Below are positions 49,216-58,180 of a stretch of DNA of 64,000 bases, in pieces. A program made the position numbers and the translations under genes. Under the pieces are notes generated by a model. It saw only the letters and a program-made list of their open reading frames with translations, was not told the DNA's origin and did not search any database. Every line of letters starts with the position of its first letter. The first letter of the stretch is position 1. The DNA is from Sulfuracidifex tepidarius. Its GTDB lineage: Archaea > Thermoproteota > Thermoprotei_A > Sulfolobales > Sulfolobaceae. The stretch is taken from the NCBI RefSeq assembly GCF_008326425.1, contig NZ_AP018929.1, positions 1,936,875-2,000,874 of the forward strand, given 5' to 3'.

Positions 49216-49563
49216 TCATTCTCGTTGACGAATAAAATCGTATTCAGGAAGAGGTTTTCTCGCTTTTTGACCTTTGTTTAGGACCTCGTCTATAACGCTT
49301 TTTATTTTCTCGGCTTCTTGAATATGCCTTTCGTATTCTTCTATCTTCTTGAGGATCATCTTGCCCTTATCCGTTGTTTGGAATGCCTTGTTTCCTGTTT
49401 CTATAATTAGATCGCTCTTTATGAGATCAGATAGATAACCGGTAATCGTTTTATGATTCAGATTAGCAGCGTACATCAAAGAGGTCTTCTGAGTTTCTTT
49501 TATAGAGGCGCTCAAAATAGATTTAATTATAGCTATCTTATTTCTTCTAGCCCTCCTTTTCAT
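49216..49563 (-). CDS. Winged-helix transcriptional regulator (HTH_45-like)
   Basis: A 115-residue basic protein. The wing-HTH core is SLMYAANLNHKTITGYLSDL, LIKSDLIIETG and AFQTTDKGKMIL, the outline of the archaeal HTH_45 family, followed by a coiled-coil dimerisation helix (KKIEEYERHIQEAEKI). A near-perfect palindrome covers the 20 bases before its ATG, so it probably represses itself. Located in the glycan island, it is the best local candidate regulator of surface-glycan genes. Confidence 0.78.
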   Translation of the reverse strand: MKRRARRNKIAIIKSILSASIKETQKTSLMYAANLNHKTITGYLSDLIKSDLIIETGNKAFQTTDKGKMILKKIEEYERHIQEAEKIKSVIDEVLNKGQKARKPLPEYDFIRQRE

Positions 49564-51366: not shown

Positions 51367-52386
51367 TTGGACGTTACAATAGGGATTCCTACATTCAAAA
51401 ATGACGGAAGGACTATTCTATACACTTTGCAGTCTTTGACCAAACAAACTTACGCGGATTTCAAGGTTTTAATTGCGTATAAACCGAGCGAAAACGATAG
51501 AACTCTGGACGTTATAGAAAAATTTACTAAGTCATTAGATCTGAAAATAATGTTTCAGAGAGAAGGTTACTTTGACGAAGCCTTGAACATGATTTATTCT
51601 ACATCCAAAAGTGATATCCTTATATCAACAGACGATGATGCAGTCCCTTCAACTAATTGGGTCGAGTCCCATATAAGGGCCCATGAGAACTTCTACGACG
51701 CGGGCGTCATAGGTCCTTTTTTAGGGATCTCGCATAGATCATCCTTGATAGCAAGGCTTTATTCAAATATATTTGAAGATCCATTAGAGGAAGATATGAG
51801 GTTATCCAATAATTATTTCGCAAAGACCGGGATCCTAGTTAGGAATAATCTATTTAGAAATGCAGGGTCAAAGGTTAGAACATTTAATCCAATTGGGGTC
51901 AATATGAGCATTAAGAAAGAAGTGTATTCGGATTTCAAGCTTCCTAATATGACCCTGCGGGGTATAAACAATGAACTGTATTTATGTCTTCATGCATATG
52001 AAAAAGGATATCCTTGTACATTGGTAAACGAAAAAATTGAGGTAGAACATTTCGATCGTGATTCAATGAGCCGTCCCAAAAATTTGTCAGGAATAATTGA
52101 ACGTTTCGCAGAATTTTCCTTGTCAGTGTATTATCTTTCTAAGTTGGGATATGATCTTGACTTCAAGAAACTTAAGCTAGATATCTTTTTGAAATCTATT
52201 CCTTGGAAGTTTAAAAAAGATGAGAAATTAAAAGCGCAGCTCGTAGGCATAAAGAAAGGAATAGATATATCTTTAGAGGCATTAAAACTTAAGAAAGATG
52301 AAAAATGGATAAGACAAAAATTAATGGAAATTCGCGGAGAGCAACAGAACTCATCTAATGTTTTGAGGGATTATCAAAATGTCTAA
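51367..52386 (+). CDS. GT2-family glycosyltransferase
   Basis: A 339-residue enzyme, starting with TTG at 51367. VTIGIPTFKNDGRTILYTLQ, YKPSENDRTLDVIEKF and ISTDDDAVPS (D-D-D metal motif) are present, then FNPIGVNMSIKKEVY in the acceptor region. The C-terminal 80 residues are helical and highly charged. Its end overlaps the start of the first LamG-like gene by 8 bases, linking the glycosyltransferase and the secreted proteins in one transcript. Confidence 0.85.
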   Translation: MDVTIGIPTFKNDGRTILYTLQSLTKQTYADFKVLIAYKPSENDRTLDVIEKFTKSLDLKIMFQREGYFDEALNMIYSTSKSDILISTDDDAVPSTNWVESHIRAHENFYDAGVIGPFLGISHRSSLIARLYSNIFEDPLEEDMRLSNNYFAKTGILVRNNLFRNAGSKVRTFNPIGVNMSIKKEVYSDFKLPNMTLRGINNELYLCLHAYEKGYPCTLVNEKIEVEHFDRDSMSRPKNLSGIIERFAEFSLSVYYLSKLGYDLDFKKLKLDIFLKSIPWKFKKDEKLKAQLVGIKKGIDISLEALKLKKDEKWIRQKLMEIRGEQQNSSNVLRDYQNV

Positions 52387-53506
52387 GATATCTAGAAGGC
52401 AATTTGTAGGACTACTAGCAGTAGGATCTATCGGGATCACTGCAGTAGTCCTGGAAGGCAGTAGGAAAGGTAATAACTACAACTCAGGTTCACCTACATC
52501 TTCAAAGACCTCATTAGCGGGAACTACATTCACTCCTTTAGTAATTTTAGTTGGTTCTTCTCAACAGTGCAAGGCTATAGGTTCAAACGGAGAAGTCATC
52601 TTCTCAGGCACCTGCTCTGATGGAAGTGGAACTTGCGGTATTTATGAGGCAATGCAGTACGTCAACCAGAACTTCGGCGCTGGAAAGGTTGACCTCATAG
52701 GCGAGTTCTATCCTACCAGTTCACCTTCCCCGATCCCCAACGTTGAACTTGACGGAAACGCAGTGATTTACTTGTCCCCTGCTAACTTGCAGTTCATTAT
52801 GTCCTCAACTAGGGGTAACGGAATAAAGCTTCTATGGTATCAGAACTACGGTTTCGTCAACACCTTGCTCTCTCGCTCGCCTTCCTTTTCGCTTTCTCCT
52901 TACTTTTTCTTCCCTACCACAGCCTCATCGGTTTTCTTCGCTAACGGTGACCTTACCTTAGGCACTCCTTCATCATTCACAGTAGGAGCTTGGGTGAACG
53001 GAAATCAGAACAACAACGGAGGATATATCCTCACCTATGGATCCATGAGTGGAATATCCTGGGCCATACAGTACGGATATGGAGCGATTCTCTTTAACAC
53101 AGATCAGACGTTAAAATATTATTATGACGAAGCTCCTTTCCATGTTGCAGTCACTTACGACAACGGAGACGTCACTCTGTACGTCAACGGCAAACCCGTG
53201 TCAACATCCACCTCTTCCATCTCATACGTAACTCCCTCTTATCTGTGGTTGAACAACTTCCCTAAGGTAAATCAGCAATCAGGTCTCTCTCCTTCCTCTC
53301 CGTTTTCGTCTATAGAGAACGTTCAGTTCTACCCTAAGGTTCTCTCTCAATCTCAGATCGAGGCAATTGCATCACCTACTGCTTCGCCAGTAGACCCATC
53401 CATATCTTTCTGGGCCCTCTATCGCTACATCTTTTATCTCGGAGATCTGATCACAGGGAAGGGATTTCAGAGGATGGGAGGCGTCCTAGAAGGAGGTGTG
53501 TTCTAG
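52379..53506 (+). CDS. Tat-exported LamG-like (concanavalin-fold) protein, copy 1
   Basis: A 375-residue protein. SRRQFVGLLAVGSIGITAVV (5-24) is a twin-arginine signal, and a Ser/Thr/Gly linker follows to about residue 58. Residues 60-130 (CSDGSGTCGIYEAMQYV, GKVDLIGEFYP) resemble the start of pectate-lyase-type repeats. A LamG jelly roll is read from SSFTVGAWVNG through FHVAVTYDNGDVTLYVNGKP to IENVQFYPKVLSQSQIEAIA. A hydrophobic C-terminus (ISFWALYRYIFYLGDLITG) ends the protein. From 52554 on, the DNA is apparently identical to copy 2. A carbohydrate-binding or surface role is inferred. Confidence 0.75.
   Translation: MSKISRRQFVGLLAVGSIGITAVVLEGSRKGNNYNSGSPTSSKTSLAGTTFTPLVILVGSSQQCKAIGSNGEVIFSGTCSDGSGTCGIYEAMQYVNQNFGAGKVDLIGEFYPTSSPSPIPNVELDGNAVIYLSPANLQFIMSSTRGNGIKLLWYQNYGFVNTLLSRSPSFSLSPYFFFPTTASSVFFANGDLTLGTPSSFTVGAWVNGNQNNNGGYILTYGSMSGISWAIQYGYGAILFNTDQTLKYYYDEAPFHVAVTYDNGDVTLYVNGKPVSTSTSSISYVTPSYLWLNNFPKVNQQSGLSPSSPFSSIENVQFYPKVLSQSQIEAIASPTASPVDPSISFWALYRYIFYLGDLITGKGFQRMGGVLEGGVF
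52554..53505 (+). repeat. 952-bp direct repeat, copy 1
   Basis: Positions 52554-53505 correspond to 54020-54971 (offset 1466) without a difference that I could find by eye, and the encoded proteins are identical over about 316 residues. Sequences outside, including the 58-residue and 48-residue N-termini and the bases after the stop, differ. The repeat ends inside the stop codon (TAG versus TAA). Confidence 0.9.
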
Positions 53507-53874: not shown

Positions 53875-54972
53875 ATGAGCAAAATTTCAAGAAGAGAGTT
53901 CATAGGACTGTTAGGCGTAGGAGCTGTAGCTTTAGGTTCGTCTAAATTAGCTCTCTCTTCAAGCCCCTCCAGTGAAATACCATCTTCCTTTTTTGGTTCG
54001 TCATTGGCAGTAGTCTTTAGTTCTTCTCAACAGTGCAAGGCTATAGGTTCAAACGGAGAAGTCATCTTCTCAGGCACCTGCTCTGATGGAAGTGGAACTT
54101 GCGGTATTTATGAGGCAATGCAGTACGTCAACCAGAACTTCGGCGCTGGAAAGGTTGACCTCATAGGCGAGTTCTATCCTACCAGTTCACCTTCCCCGAT
54201 CCCCAACGTTGAACTTGACGGAAACGCAGTGATTTACTTGTCCCCTGCTAACTTGCAGTTCATTATGTCCTCAACTAGGGGTAACGGAATAAAGCTTCTA
54301 TGGTATCAGAACTACGGTTTCGTCAACACCTTGCTCTCTCGCTCGCCTTCCTTTTCGCTTTCTCCTTACTTTTTCTTCCCTACCACAGCCTCATCGGTTT
54401 TCTTCGCTAACGGTGACCTTACCTTAGGCACTCCTTCATCATTCACAGTAGGAGCTTGGGTGAACGGAAATCAGAACAACAACGGAGGATATATCCTCAC
54501 CTATGGATCCATGAGTGGAATATCCTGGGCCATACAGTACGGATATGGAGCGATTCTCTTTAACACAGATCAGACGTTAAAATATTATTATGACGAAGCT
54601 CCTTTCCATGTTGCAGTCACTTACGACAACGGAGACGTCACTCTGTACGTCAACGGCAAACCCGTGTCAACATCCACCTCTTCCATCTCATACGTAACTC
54701 CCTCTTATCTGTGGTTGAACAACTTCCCTAAGGTAAATCAGCAATCAGGTCTCTCTCCTTCCTCTCCGTTTTCGTCTATAGAGAACGTTCAGTTCTACCC
54801 TAAGGTTCTCTCTCAATCTCAGATCGAGGCAATTGCATCACCTACTGCTTCGCCAGTAGACCCATCCATATCTTTCTGGGCCCTCTATCGCTACATCTTT
54901 TATCTCGGAGATCTGATCACAGGGAAGGGATTTCAGAGGATGGGAGGCGTCCTAGAAGGAGGTGTGTTCTAA
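53875..54972 (+). CDS. Tat-exported LamG-like (concanavalin-fold) protein, copy 2
   Basis: A 365-residue protein. SRREFIGLLGVGAVALGSSK (5-24) is a twin-arginine signal, diverged from copy 1 at synonymous and replacement sites. From residue 50 the protein is identical to copy 1: a Cys-containing N-terminal domain, the LamG jelly roll, and the hydrophobic C-terminal segment ending GKGFQRMGGVLEGGVF. The stop TAA is followed at once by ATG of the beta-helix gene in the same frame. That codon could once have been sense, or is read through, giving an 850-residue Tat-LamG-beta-helix protein. Confidence 0.75.
   Translation: MSKISRREFIGLLGVGAVALGSSKLALSSSPSSEIPSSFFGSSLAVVFSSSQQCKAIGSNGEVIFSGTCSDGSGTCGIYEAMQYVNQNFGAGKVDLIGEFYPTSSPSPIPNVELDGNAVIYLSPANLQFIMSSTRGNGIKLLWYQNYGFVNTLLSRSPSFSLSPYFFFPTTASSVFFANGDLTLGTPSSFTVGAWVNGNQNNNGGYILTYGSMSGISWAIQYGYGAILFNTDQTLKYYYDEAPFHVAVTYDNGDVTLYVNGKPVSTSTSSISYVTPSYLWLNNFPKVNQQSGLSPSSPFSSIENVQFYPKVLSQSQIEAIASPTASPVDPSISFWALYRYIFYLGDLITGKGFQRMGGVLEGGVF
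54020..54971 (+). repeat. 952-bp direct repeat, copy 2
   Basis: Partner of 52554-53505. The repeated part looks clearly more GC-rich than the flanking N-terminal coding sequence and the AT-rich spacer, consistent with spread of an imported cassette by recombination. Confidence 0.9.
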
Positions 54973-56427
54973 ATGATAGTAGTCTCTGACCACATGGATC
55001 CAGACGTAGACTTCTATGTTCCACCAGGATCAGACGCTACTGATGTTTTAAACGAAGCTCTCCAGCTCGGGAACATCTATGGTGTGGCTCACATTATGAT
55101 TAGAGGTAGATTGTATCTTTATGCAAACGGAAACACTCTCTTTAGCTTAGAACAGAGCAAGCACTACCTTTTTGAAGGGGATGGCTTAGGAGAGCTGTAC
55201 TACGTTAACCCTAATAACGCACAGAACCCCGGTCCGGTTTTTGCCGTGGCGTCGATAGCGACTTCACAAATGCAGGAAATAGGGGATACAGCTCCAGTCG
55301 TAGGTAAACAGTTCGCGGCGTATTCCACAAATGGGTGGATGGTAGCTTTCAAAAACTTGAGGTTATTGAATCAAACATCTCAGCGTTGGTTTATAATCAC
55401 AGGCTTTTCGGGCATGCATTCCCTCATGATGTATTTCGACGGAGTAGAATTCTTCTCAGGCATATGGATAAATGAAACCACTGAAGTAGTTGTGTATAAC
55501 TGTTATGCTAATGGAGCCGAACTTCTCTTTGACTCTCAGTCTAGAGAATTAACGGTTTTTGGTTCTAGATTCGAACATAATGCTGTGCTTGCAATGTCAG
55601 CTAGAGGATGGTCTGTAGTAGGCTGTGTTTTCGTAGGAAAAGGTTCTTATCTCAATCCAGGTAACGATGGAAACGATGGATCAGTGGTAGCTTGTGTATT
55701 TGATGGAGCAACACTAATTACGCAAGGAGCAACAAACCTGAAGATAGTTGCATCCCAATTTCAGAATGTGACTTTCAGCGGATATCAAGGCACTGTTCAA
55801 CTGACTTTAGGATGGAATTATGTAATAGTTGGCTGTTCTTTCGTTCAGTTCCCACTTTCAATAACTAACGTATATAACGGGCATACGATAGTCATAGCCA
55901 TGAACAACTTCGATTATGGCTCTTATGCAGAAATAGGAGTTTGTGACAGCGGTTACGTGGACTCAATAGTGATTATGGGTAACATTTTCTCCTCTCAGCC
56001 TTATAATTCCTCTCTGATCTTCTTCACAGGGAGCCCTCAATATAGATCGACAAGCAATGCAATTTACTTTACTGGAACCATAAACATGCTACAAATAGCC
56101 TTTAACACCTTCATAAACGCGGCTAACCGGTCTGGAGCAACTTTAGGAATTAAGGCAGCTGAGAACGAAAACCTTCACGGACAAGGGTATATCAACTTGG
56201 GCATCTCCGTAAAATACGCATATATCTCCTTTAACTACTTCAAGAACAATCAGGGCCTTCACGATAATGGCACGGGAAAGCCCCTGGGAGTGTTTTACAT
56301 GCAACAGTTAGGGTCTTCCATGCCCACAGTGAGTTATCTCATGTTTTACTTTAACGTAAACGAGGACAACCCCTTGTACATACCATCCTCACAGAGCTAT
56401 ATATCACAATTCAACATAGGTATGTGA
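54973..56427 (+). CDS. Right-handed parallel beta-helix protein (pectate-lyase-like), no signal peptide
   Basis: A 484-residue protein. An N-terminal cap (DFYVPPGSDATDVLNEALQL, AHIMIRGRLYLY) is followed by about ten beta-helix coils with regular aliphatic/aromatic and Asn positions: VVYNCYANGAELLF, VFGSRFEHNAVL, VVGCVFVGKGSYL, IVASQFQNVTF, IVGCSFVQFPL, IAMNNFDYG, IMGNIFSS. The fold is that of polysaccharide lyases/hydrolases and phage tailspikes. Catalytic residues cannot be assigned. It has no signal of its own and begins directly after the stop of LamG copy 2 in the same frame, so it may be exported with it. Confidence 0.72.
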   Translation: MIVVSDHMDPDVDFYVPPGSDATDVLNEALQLGNIYGVAHIMIRGRLYLYANGNTLFSLEQSKHYLFEGDGLGELYYVNPNNAQNPGPVFAVASIATSQMQEIGDTAPVVGKQFAAYSTNGWMVAFKNLRLLNQTSQRWFIITGFSGMHSLMMYFDGVEFFSGIWINETTEVVVYNCYANGAELLFDSQSRELTVFGSRFEHNAVLAMSARGWSVVGCVFVGKGSYLNPGNDGNDGSVVACVFDGATLITQGATNLKIVASQFQNVTFSGYQGTVQLTLGWNYVIVGCSFVQFPLSITNVYNGHTIVIAMNNFDYGSYAEIGVCDSGYVDSIVIMGNIFSSQPYNSSLIFFTGSPQYRSTSNAIYFTGTINMLQIAFNTFINAANRSGATLGIKAAENENLHGQGYINLGISVKYAYISFNYFKNNQGLHDNGTGKPLGVFYMQQLGSSMPTVSYLMFYFNVNEDNPLYIPSSQSYISQFNIGM

Positions 56428-56530: not shown

Positions 56531-56971
56531 ATGAAAGCGATCATAAAATACGATAACGGGGAAACAGAGGAAGTAGAGCTAGAAAAGAAAGAGGTCATAC
56601 CAAGCGACCAAGGGAATGTAGCCCACTTTAAGTATGTTAAGCTGGATAAATCAAAGAGCATCGTTATCCACGTATATCTGCCAACCACAGAGGAACCTAA
56701 CGTTAGGGCTATAGACATAGGAAAGGAAGTGGTAGAAAGGAAGACTTCAATTTCAAGATACAACAACATTGCAGACGATCTAATCACGAGAGCTAAGTTT
56801 ATGAGTCCTTCCGTCGATAAATGTGTTTTTTGTGGAGACTTAGCCTCCAACACCTTTAAAGGTAAGAAAGTTTGTTCCTCTTGTTTTGCGGAGCTAAATA
56901 AACATGGAGAGGCGTCTGAGGAGTTCTCTAAGTACTTAAGAAACAAGACGATCCACAAGTGGAACTCTTAA
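56531..56971 (+). CDS. Zinc-ribbon protein of unknown function
   Basis: A 146-residue protein. An N-terminal beta-rich domain (AIIKYDNGETEEVELEKKEV, IVIHVYLP) and a helical middle lead to CVFCGDLASNTFKGKKVCSSC, a C-x2-C-x13-C-x2-C zinc ribbon near 100-120. A TATA box CTTATTTAAATAGG lies at about 56496-56509, with CAGGAG just before the ATG. Stand-alone transcript; no family recognised. Confidence 0.68.
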   Translation: MKAIIKYDNGETEEVELEKKEVIPSDQGNVAHFKYVKLDKSKSIVIHVYLPTTEEPNVRAIDIGKEVVERKTSISRYNNIADDLITRAKFMSPSVDKCVFCGDLASNTFKGKKVCSSCFAELNKHGEASEEFSKYLRNKTIHKWNS

Positions 56972-57658: not shown

Positions 57659-58180
57659 ATGAAGTTAGTGGCTTCTCTTGGGACTTCCCCCGGAGGGATC
57701 CTCGAGACGTTCGAATACCTAAGGGGGAGAGGGATTGAGGTCAACGATATAGTGATAGTGAAAACCAAGGACAGTGCAGTCAGTAAAGCGTATGACTACC
57801 TACTCTCCATGTTTTCGTGCTGCGTGAAGTTGAGGTACAACGACGTGATGATGGGAGCTATCGACTTACCTTTCAGCGATATAACTACTTCAGACGACTT
57901 GAACGAGCTAATGAAAATTGTATCACCAGCGATTAACCAAGGGGACTACGTTGATATCACGGGAGGAAGAAAGGCTATAAGTATGGTCATGGGGCTGATA
58001 GCCATGAAGAGGAAGGCCCACGTGGTCACTACCATAGTGTCTCAGTCTAAGTACAACGAAGTTCAGGAAAAGCTGAGGAAGGGTCATCAACCTGTGACCC
58101 AAAACTGCTCACCTTCTGACAAGGAATTCTTCTGTAGCCTCTTGTCTAGTGACGCTGTGACTATAGAGATAAACTTGTAG
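57659..58180 (+). CDS. CARF-domain protein, ring-nuclease-like (Crn1-like)
   Basis: A 173-residue single-domain CARF (Rossmann-like) protein. LGTSPGG (7-13) has the Ser (S10) that contacts cyclic oligoadenylate in ring nucleases. DITGGRKAIS (99-108) is the D-x-TGGRKxxS motif of CARF proteins, and VIVKTKD forms the second strand. A basic segment (EKLRKGHQ, 137-144) may supply the catalytic lysine, and an additional 25 residues end the fold. Size fits stand-alone Crn1 ring nucleases of Sulfolobales, which degrade cA4 made by type III CRISPR complexes. No array or cas gene lies in the window. TATA ACTTATAAATC about 25 bases upstream gives a leaderless transcript. Confidence 0.75.
   Translation: MKLVASLGTSPGGILETFEYLRGRGIEVNDIVIVKTKDSAVSKAYDYLLSMFSCCVKLRYNDVMMGAIDLPFSDITTSDDLNELMKIVSPAINQGDYVDITGGRKAISMVMGLIAMKRKAHVVTTIVSQSKYNEVQEKLRKGHQPVTQNCSPSDKEFFCSLLSSDAVTIEINL

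Follow-up and report, generated by a model that had tools for sequence, protein, structure and literature searches.

Hitchhiking through the Tat translocase is known for hydrogenases and formate dehydrogenases, and the examples given are cofactor enzymes with a signal on one subunit and none on the other (PMC10924467). WceF of Pantoea stewartii, a trimeric glycosidase of tailspike fold shown to hydrolyse stewartan, is the product of a gene in an exopolysaccharide cluster and has a Tat signal of its own (PMC7949094); Tat signals can thus be borne by tailspike-fold enzymes from such clusters. For Sulfolobus-type archaea, Shine-Dalgarno (SD) motifs are described as rare in de novo initiation and ample for reinitiation (Huber et al. 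2019, PMC6728339), and the same account includes a Sulfolobus solfataricus gene pair with touching stop and start codons and an intragenic SD. Stop-codon readthrough is presented in one review as demonstrated in archaea only for selenocysteine and pyrrolysine, next to one -1 frameshift (PMC8211752).

The locus described here lies in a window of 64,000 nucleotides of Sulfuracidifex tepidarius DNA (contig NZ_AP018929.1), the whole stretch that was analysed. It holds a LamG gene that touches a gene for a signal-less beta-helix protein, a third gene behind these two, and a second LamG gene and a glycosyltransferase gene in front of them. Positions are those of the window.

51367-52386, plus strand: GT2 glycosyltransferase, assigned by profile; by neighbourhood comparison also a LamG neighbour in G025, G018 and G011
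52379-53506, plus strand: LamG copy 1, solo paralogue, overlapping the GT2 gene by 8 nt; its body equals that of copy 2, putatively by conversion (sequence comparison)
52554-53505, plus strand: 952-nt tract identical to 54020-54971 (sequence comparison)
53875-54972, plus strand: LamG copy 2, partner of the beta-helix gene, 365 aa, with twin-arginine signal (TIGR01409), Laminin_G_3 domain (PF13385) and conserved GFQRMG C-terminus
54020-54971, plus strand: 952-nt tract identical to 52554-53505 (sequence comparison)
54958-54964, plus strand: SD motif GGAGGTG in the final LamG codons, 8 nt upstream of the ATG (sequence; duplex energy -8.7)
54970-54972, plus strand: LamG stop codon TAA, read from the sequence
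54973-56427, plus strand: right-handed beta-helix protein, 484 aa, without signal peptide (ORF, AlphaFold, N-terminal scan)
56531-56971, plus strand: third gene of the trio, for a zinc-ribbon-like protein of 146 aa with four invariant Cys and cytosol-like composition (homologues, linear discriminant analysis)

The LamG stop is followed by the ATG at 54973 with zero spacer and in one frame, as the first-pass annotation had read it. Within an 864-kb sample of the own genome, a gap of zero was found at seven of 665 same-strand neighbouring ORF pairs, this joint included, and a gap of -4 (overlap) at 60, counts that are approximate since they derive from a mechanical set of ORFs of at least 100 aa. 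The joint is real and not unusual; it is an ordinary archaeal operon boundary. Eight genomes, among them the own genome (G000), carry the pair and were compared. Five of them (G000, G025, G018, G011, G004) have a gap of 0 nt, G013 and G014 one of +2 and G020 one of +1, the frames differing in the latter three; the stop of the partnered LamG gene is TAA in G000, G025, G013, G014, G018 and G020, TAG in G004 and TGA in G011.

The GGAGGTG motif pairs with the 3' end of the own-genome 16S rRNA (ending in GGATCACCTCAC), and its duplex energy is matched or beaten by 8.75% of 80 close-coupled ATG starts and by just 0.4% of 250 distant ones. An SD of -5.6 or better is present at all eight partnered junctions (range -5.6 to -9.6), despite the varying stop and gap. 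Solo LamG paralogues, which have no beta-helix gene after them, occur in G013, G014, G018 and G011; in the first three of these the LamG ends pair more weakly with the anti-SD (-2.7, -2.7 and -4.8, respectively) and encode GP or GS where the partners have GV. With a 12-nt anti-SD, solos reach -6.8 to -7.9 and partners -7.5 to -13.9, a contrast that fails at the G020 partner (-7.5), which is no better than two solos (-7.9). The arrangement is of a known kind. As in the S. solfataricus pair, the stop abuts the start and the SD lies within the upstream ORF, but that pair reads UGAGUG and is reported as uncoupled in vitro (PMC6728339), whereas the joint described here reads TAA then ATG and its coupling is putative. 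Ribosomes that finish LamG at the TAA would start the beta-helix protein at the abutting ATG, using the SD in the last LamG codons; the two genes probably form one operon and may be co-translated.

No hydrophobic N-terminal segment is present in the beta-helix protein (over residues 1-45, KD17 peaks at 0.8), which bears out the signal-less start noted earlier, and an upstream start is ruled out by an in-frame stop. All nine homologues likewise lack such a segment (maximum KD17 0.69-1.34, first 45 residues) and begin straight at the N-cap; the structure matches set in at residue 1 or 2, too early for a signal to precede them. AlphaFold predicts a right-handed beta-helix (pLDDT 77.7, pTM 0.80) with a best Foldseek E-value of 8.7e-4. 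Its best PDB fold match is the tailspike TSP3 of phage CBA120 (5w6f; Z 27.2, rmsd 3.3, 340 residues), and other top matches are AlgE epimerases, whose A-modules also start at the N-cap, and the Vibrio polysaccharide lyase RbmB (Z 23-27 across the set). Searches of Pfam (over cut-off), PHROGs, NCBIfam and PDB sequences gave no match to a named family; the fold is predicted to be of the tailspike/polysaccharide-lyase type, and we claim no named family for it. TSP3 is a phage tailspike, whereas the beta-helix protein is 14% identical to it, has no virion context and has no viral or phage relative that we found; a viral origin was rejected, with none of four pattern matches on viral contigs confirmed.

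Composition was assessed by linear discriminant analysis trained on 27 ORFs with a signal and 257 without one; 78% and 3.5% of these, respectively, were called secreted in cross-validation. The beta-helix protein is secreted-like, only one of the 257 signal-less ORFs scoring as high, and so are all nine homologues; beta-helix folds may by nature be poor in Lys and Glu, so that the composition may in part reflect the fold. Sequons number 178 against 99.5 expected in signal-bearing proteins of the own genome, 6 against 5.7 in the beta-helix protein of the window and 0 against 3.8 in the window LamG. Summed over homologues they number 74 against about 58 for the beta-helix (nine rows) and 21 against about 48.5 for LamG (13 rows). 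The window beta-helix protein is at chance level and LamG depleted; as proof of export, sequon enrichment gives no help.

Among 31 genomes of the family, 9 have a relative of the beta-helix protein; in the order the count is 9 of 214, and in a sample of 398 drawn from the whole phylum it is 5, each again a member of that family. LamG is present in 8 of the 214 order genomes and ends directly upstream of the beta-helix gene in eight of the nine genomes, the exception being G019; the Tat-signal LamG accompanies the beta-helix in 8/8 genomes whose beta-helix gene is whole or nearly so. The zinc-ribbon protein (146-150 aa) comes after the beta-helix gene in seven of eight genomes; in G020 its gene is unlinked but present and adjoins glycosyltransferases. 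All three genes are thus shared by the same 8 of the 31 family genomes (Fisher 1.3e-7 for LamG and the third gene, kinship ignored). Between G013 and G014, dN/dS is about 0.09 for the beta-helix, 0.2 for LamG and 0.18 for the third gene, which indicates that all three are under purifying selection. A further beta-helix gene in G020 lacks a LamG directly upstream, and the two copies of this genome are poorly placed on long branches of the beta-helix tree. Glycosyltransferases are encoded nearby, as is a membrane protein of polysaccharide biosynthesis, and the GT2 neighbour is cytosol-like in composition. In G019 (L036:9651-9914) only beta-helix fragments with stops were seen, with neither LamG nor third gene. 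In G025, of the same genus, the beta-helix gene (L026:8318-9772) is interrupted by an in-frame TAA behind codon 343, and a number of genes around it are broken into two ORFs each, either through decay or through sequence errors.

Both LamG copies of the window score 44 bits against Laminin_G_3 (gathering cut-off 27.6). The Tat signal proposed for copy 2 holds: SRRxF is present and TIGR01409 scores 17.7 bits (cut-off 16.7). RRxF is found in all 13 LamG rows, and TIGR01409 gave no match over nine other LamG proteins scanned (0/9). TatC is encoded in the own genome (E 1.8e-47) and in 30 of the 31 family genomes.

On balance we lean towards an SD-initiated pair in which LamG takes the folded beta-helix protein through Tat as a hitchhiker, for the handling of exopolysaccharide. 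Piggy-back export, the best remaining of the three explanations offered by the first-pass annotation, is supported indirectly: it is favoured because all nine homologues lack any signal, their composition is secreted-like, and the Tat-signal LamG co-occurs in 8/8 genomes. It also fits because the signal-less folded protein has, wherever a genome retains its gene, a twin-arginine LamG for company whose gene end holds its ribosome-binding site. The genes occur together in the same 8/31 genomes, with fragments only in G019 and one extra unpaired copy in G020. Against hitchhiking stand the chance-level sequons of the beta-helix and the depleted ones of LamG, unlike those of signal-bearing proteins, the G020 copy without adjacent LamG, and the nine LamG proteins missed by TIGR01409. 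The beta-helix protein would fold in the cytoplasm and bind the LamG protein, whose twin-arginine signal would carry the complex through the translocase; outside the cell, the pair might bind or trim exopolysaccharide from the surrounding glycosyltransferase cluster, as fold and neighbourhood suggest. The cytosol-like zinc-ribbon protein may, at a guess, aid assembly or quality control before export. An AlphaFold single-chain model (pTM 0.55, without an interface measure) was set aside as evidence for a LamG/beta-helix interface.

As in the known hitchhikers, one subunit bears the signal and the other does not; those examples are cofactor enzymes (PMC10924467), whereas LamG and the beta-helix protein match no redox family and their complex is putative. 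WceF shares the tailspike-type right-handed beta-helix, the location in an exopolysaccharide cluster and a Tat signal in play (PMC7949094), but it has the signal itself and a shown activity, whereas here the signal sits on a separate LamG protein and activity on glycans is putative. We tentatively raise, as a possibility somewhat short of even, an archaeal non-redox hitchhiker: a WceF-like tailspike-fold protein with its Tat signal on a separate LamG lectin at a touching joint, and a co-inherited zinc-ribbon factor for assembly or proofreading. A literature search over titles and abstract openings returned no archaeal non-redox Tat hitchhiker and no prior account of the beta-helix family. If the pair is co-exported, thermoacidophilic archaea would add surface proteins of the lectin/tailspike type to the known Tat hitchhikers, and the pair would offer a handle on how these organisms deal with their exopolysaccharides.

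Somewhat unlikely is an SD-initiated operon pair whose beta-helix protein stays in the cytosol, for instance with lipid-linked glycan intermediates as its targets, and whose LamG partner leaves the cell on its own. The missing signal, the cytosol-like composition of the third gene and GT2 neighbour, the chance-level sequons of the window protein and the G020 copy without adjacent LamG agree with cytosolic residence, but the secreted-like composition of nine of nine homologues, the many fold relatives that work on extracellular polysaccharides and the 8/8 co-occurrence with Tat-signal LamG do not. Unlikely, too, is export of the beta-helix protein by a route of its own that needs no N-terminal signal, of the AlgE type. 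AlgE-type epimerases are exported via type I secretion; their A-modules, with an equal start at the N-cap, are among the best fold matches, which together with the secreted-like composition and the solo beta-helix gene in G020 speaks for such a route. It leaves the pairing with LamG unexplained, however, and no hydrophobic segment is present at the C-terminus (KD17 at most 1.11, last 45 residues).

Readthrough of the LamG stop to an 850-residue Tat-LamG-beta-helix protein, raised in the first-pass annotation, is very improbable: the zero spacer is in frame in five of the eight genomes with the pair, but the frame is lost in the other three (G013, G014, G020), whose proteins cannot be joined in this way because the frames differ, and with TAA, TAG and TGA all in use neither frame nor stop context is kept in relatives as programmed readthrough would have it; the ATG is served by its own strong SD, a search for an unsplit LamG/beta-helix fusion among homologues found none, the two genes being separate in every relative, and the review cited above gives nothing as demonstrated for archaea beyond the two special amino acids and the single frameshift (PMC8211752). 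The joint being ordinary, a hunt for readthrough can be spared.

For the joint, the first-pass annotation had also raised a recent split by cassette replacement. The separate genes of every relative speak against a split, whereas a recent replacement of the LamG body, via gene conversion, is supported. Copy 1 does end in TAG at the codon where copy 2 has TAA. In the LamG body tree, solo and partner genes fall apart in G013, G014 and G018 but not in the window. The solo and partner loci of G011 share a 275-nt stretch at 99.3% identity that takes in the beta-helix gene's first 26 nt; the N-terminal part of the partner-locus LamG there enters a scaffold gap. At L033:6178-6204 of G011 (M. yellowstonensis) the solo LamG is followed by these 26 nt, apparently a footprint of conversion with the partner locus as donor. 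G025 has a single LamG gene between the GT2 and beta-helix genes. Rather than a recent split, the 952-nt identity of copies 1 and 2 thus reflects recent gene conversion involving the partner gene and a solo paralogue of old standing; conversion, together with the loss of a copy in G025, is preferred because the solo/partner tree, the G011 footprint and the single G025 copy fit it. Copies 1 and 2 would have been homogenised in this way, and the SD kept by window copy 1 and by the G011 solo would most simply reflect overwriting by the partner's end.

LamG residues 75-127 (54097-54255) align weakly with residues 23-84 of the beta-helix N-cap (55039-55224; hhalign E 0.03, probability 1.7%), a hint that LamG may itself include a beta-helix cap. 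On the minus strand, a winged-helix HTH_45 gene (49216-49563) has relatives within about 10 kb of the LamG/beta-helix loci in G013, G014, G018, G011 and G025. Just 3' of the operon, on the plus strand, lies a gene for the CRISPR ring nuclease Crn1 (57659-58180; NCBIfam NF040581, 203 bits, cut-off 125), with a homologue at the equivalent place in G025.
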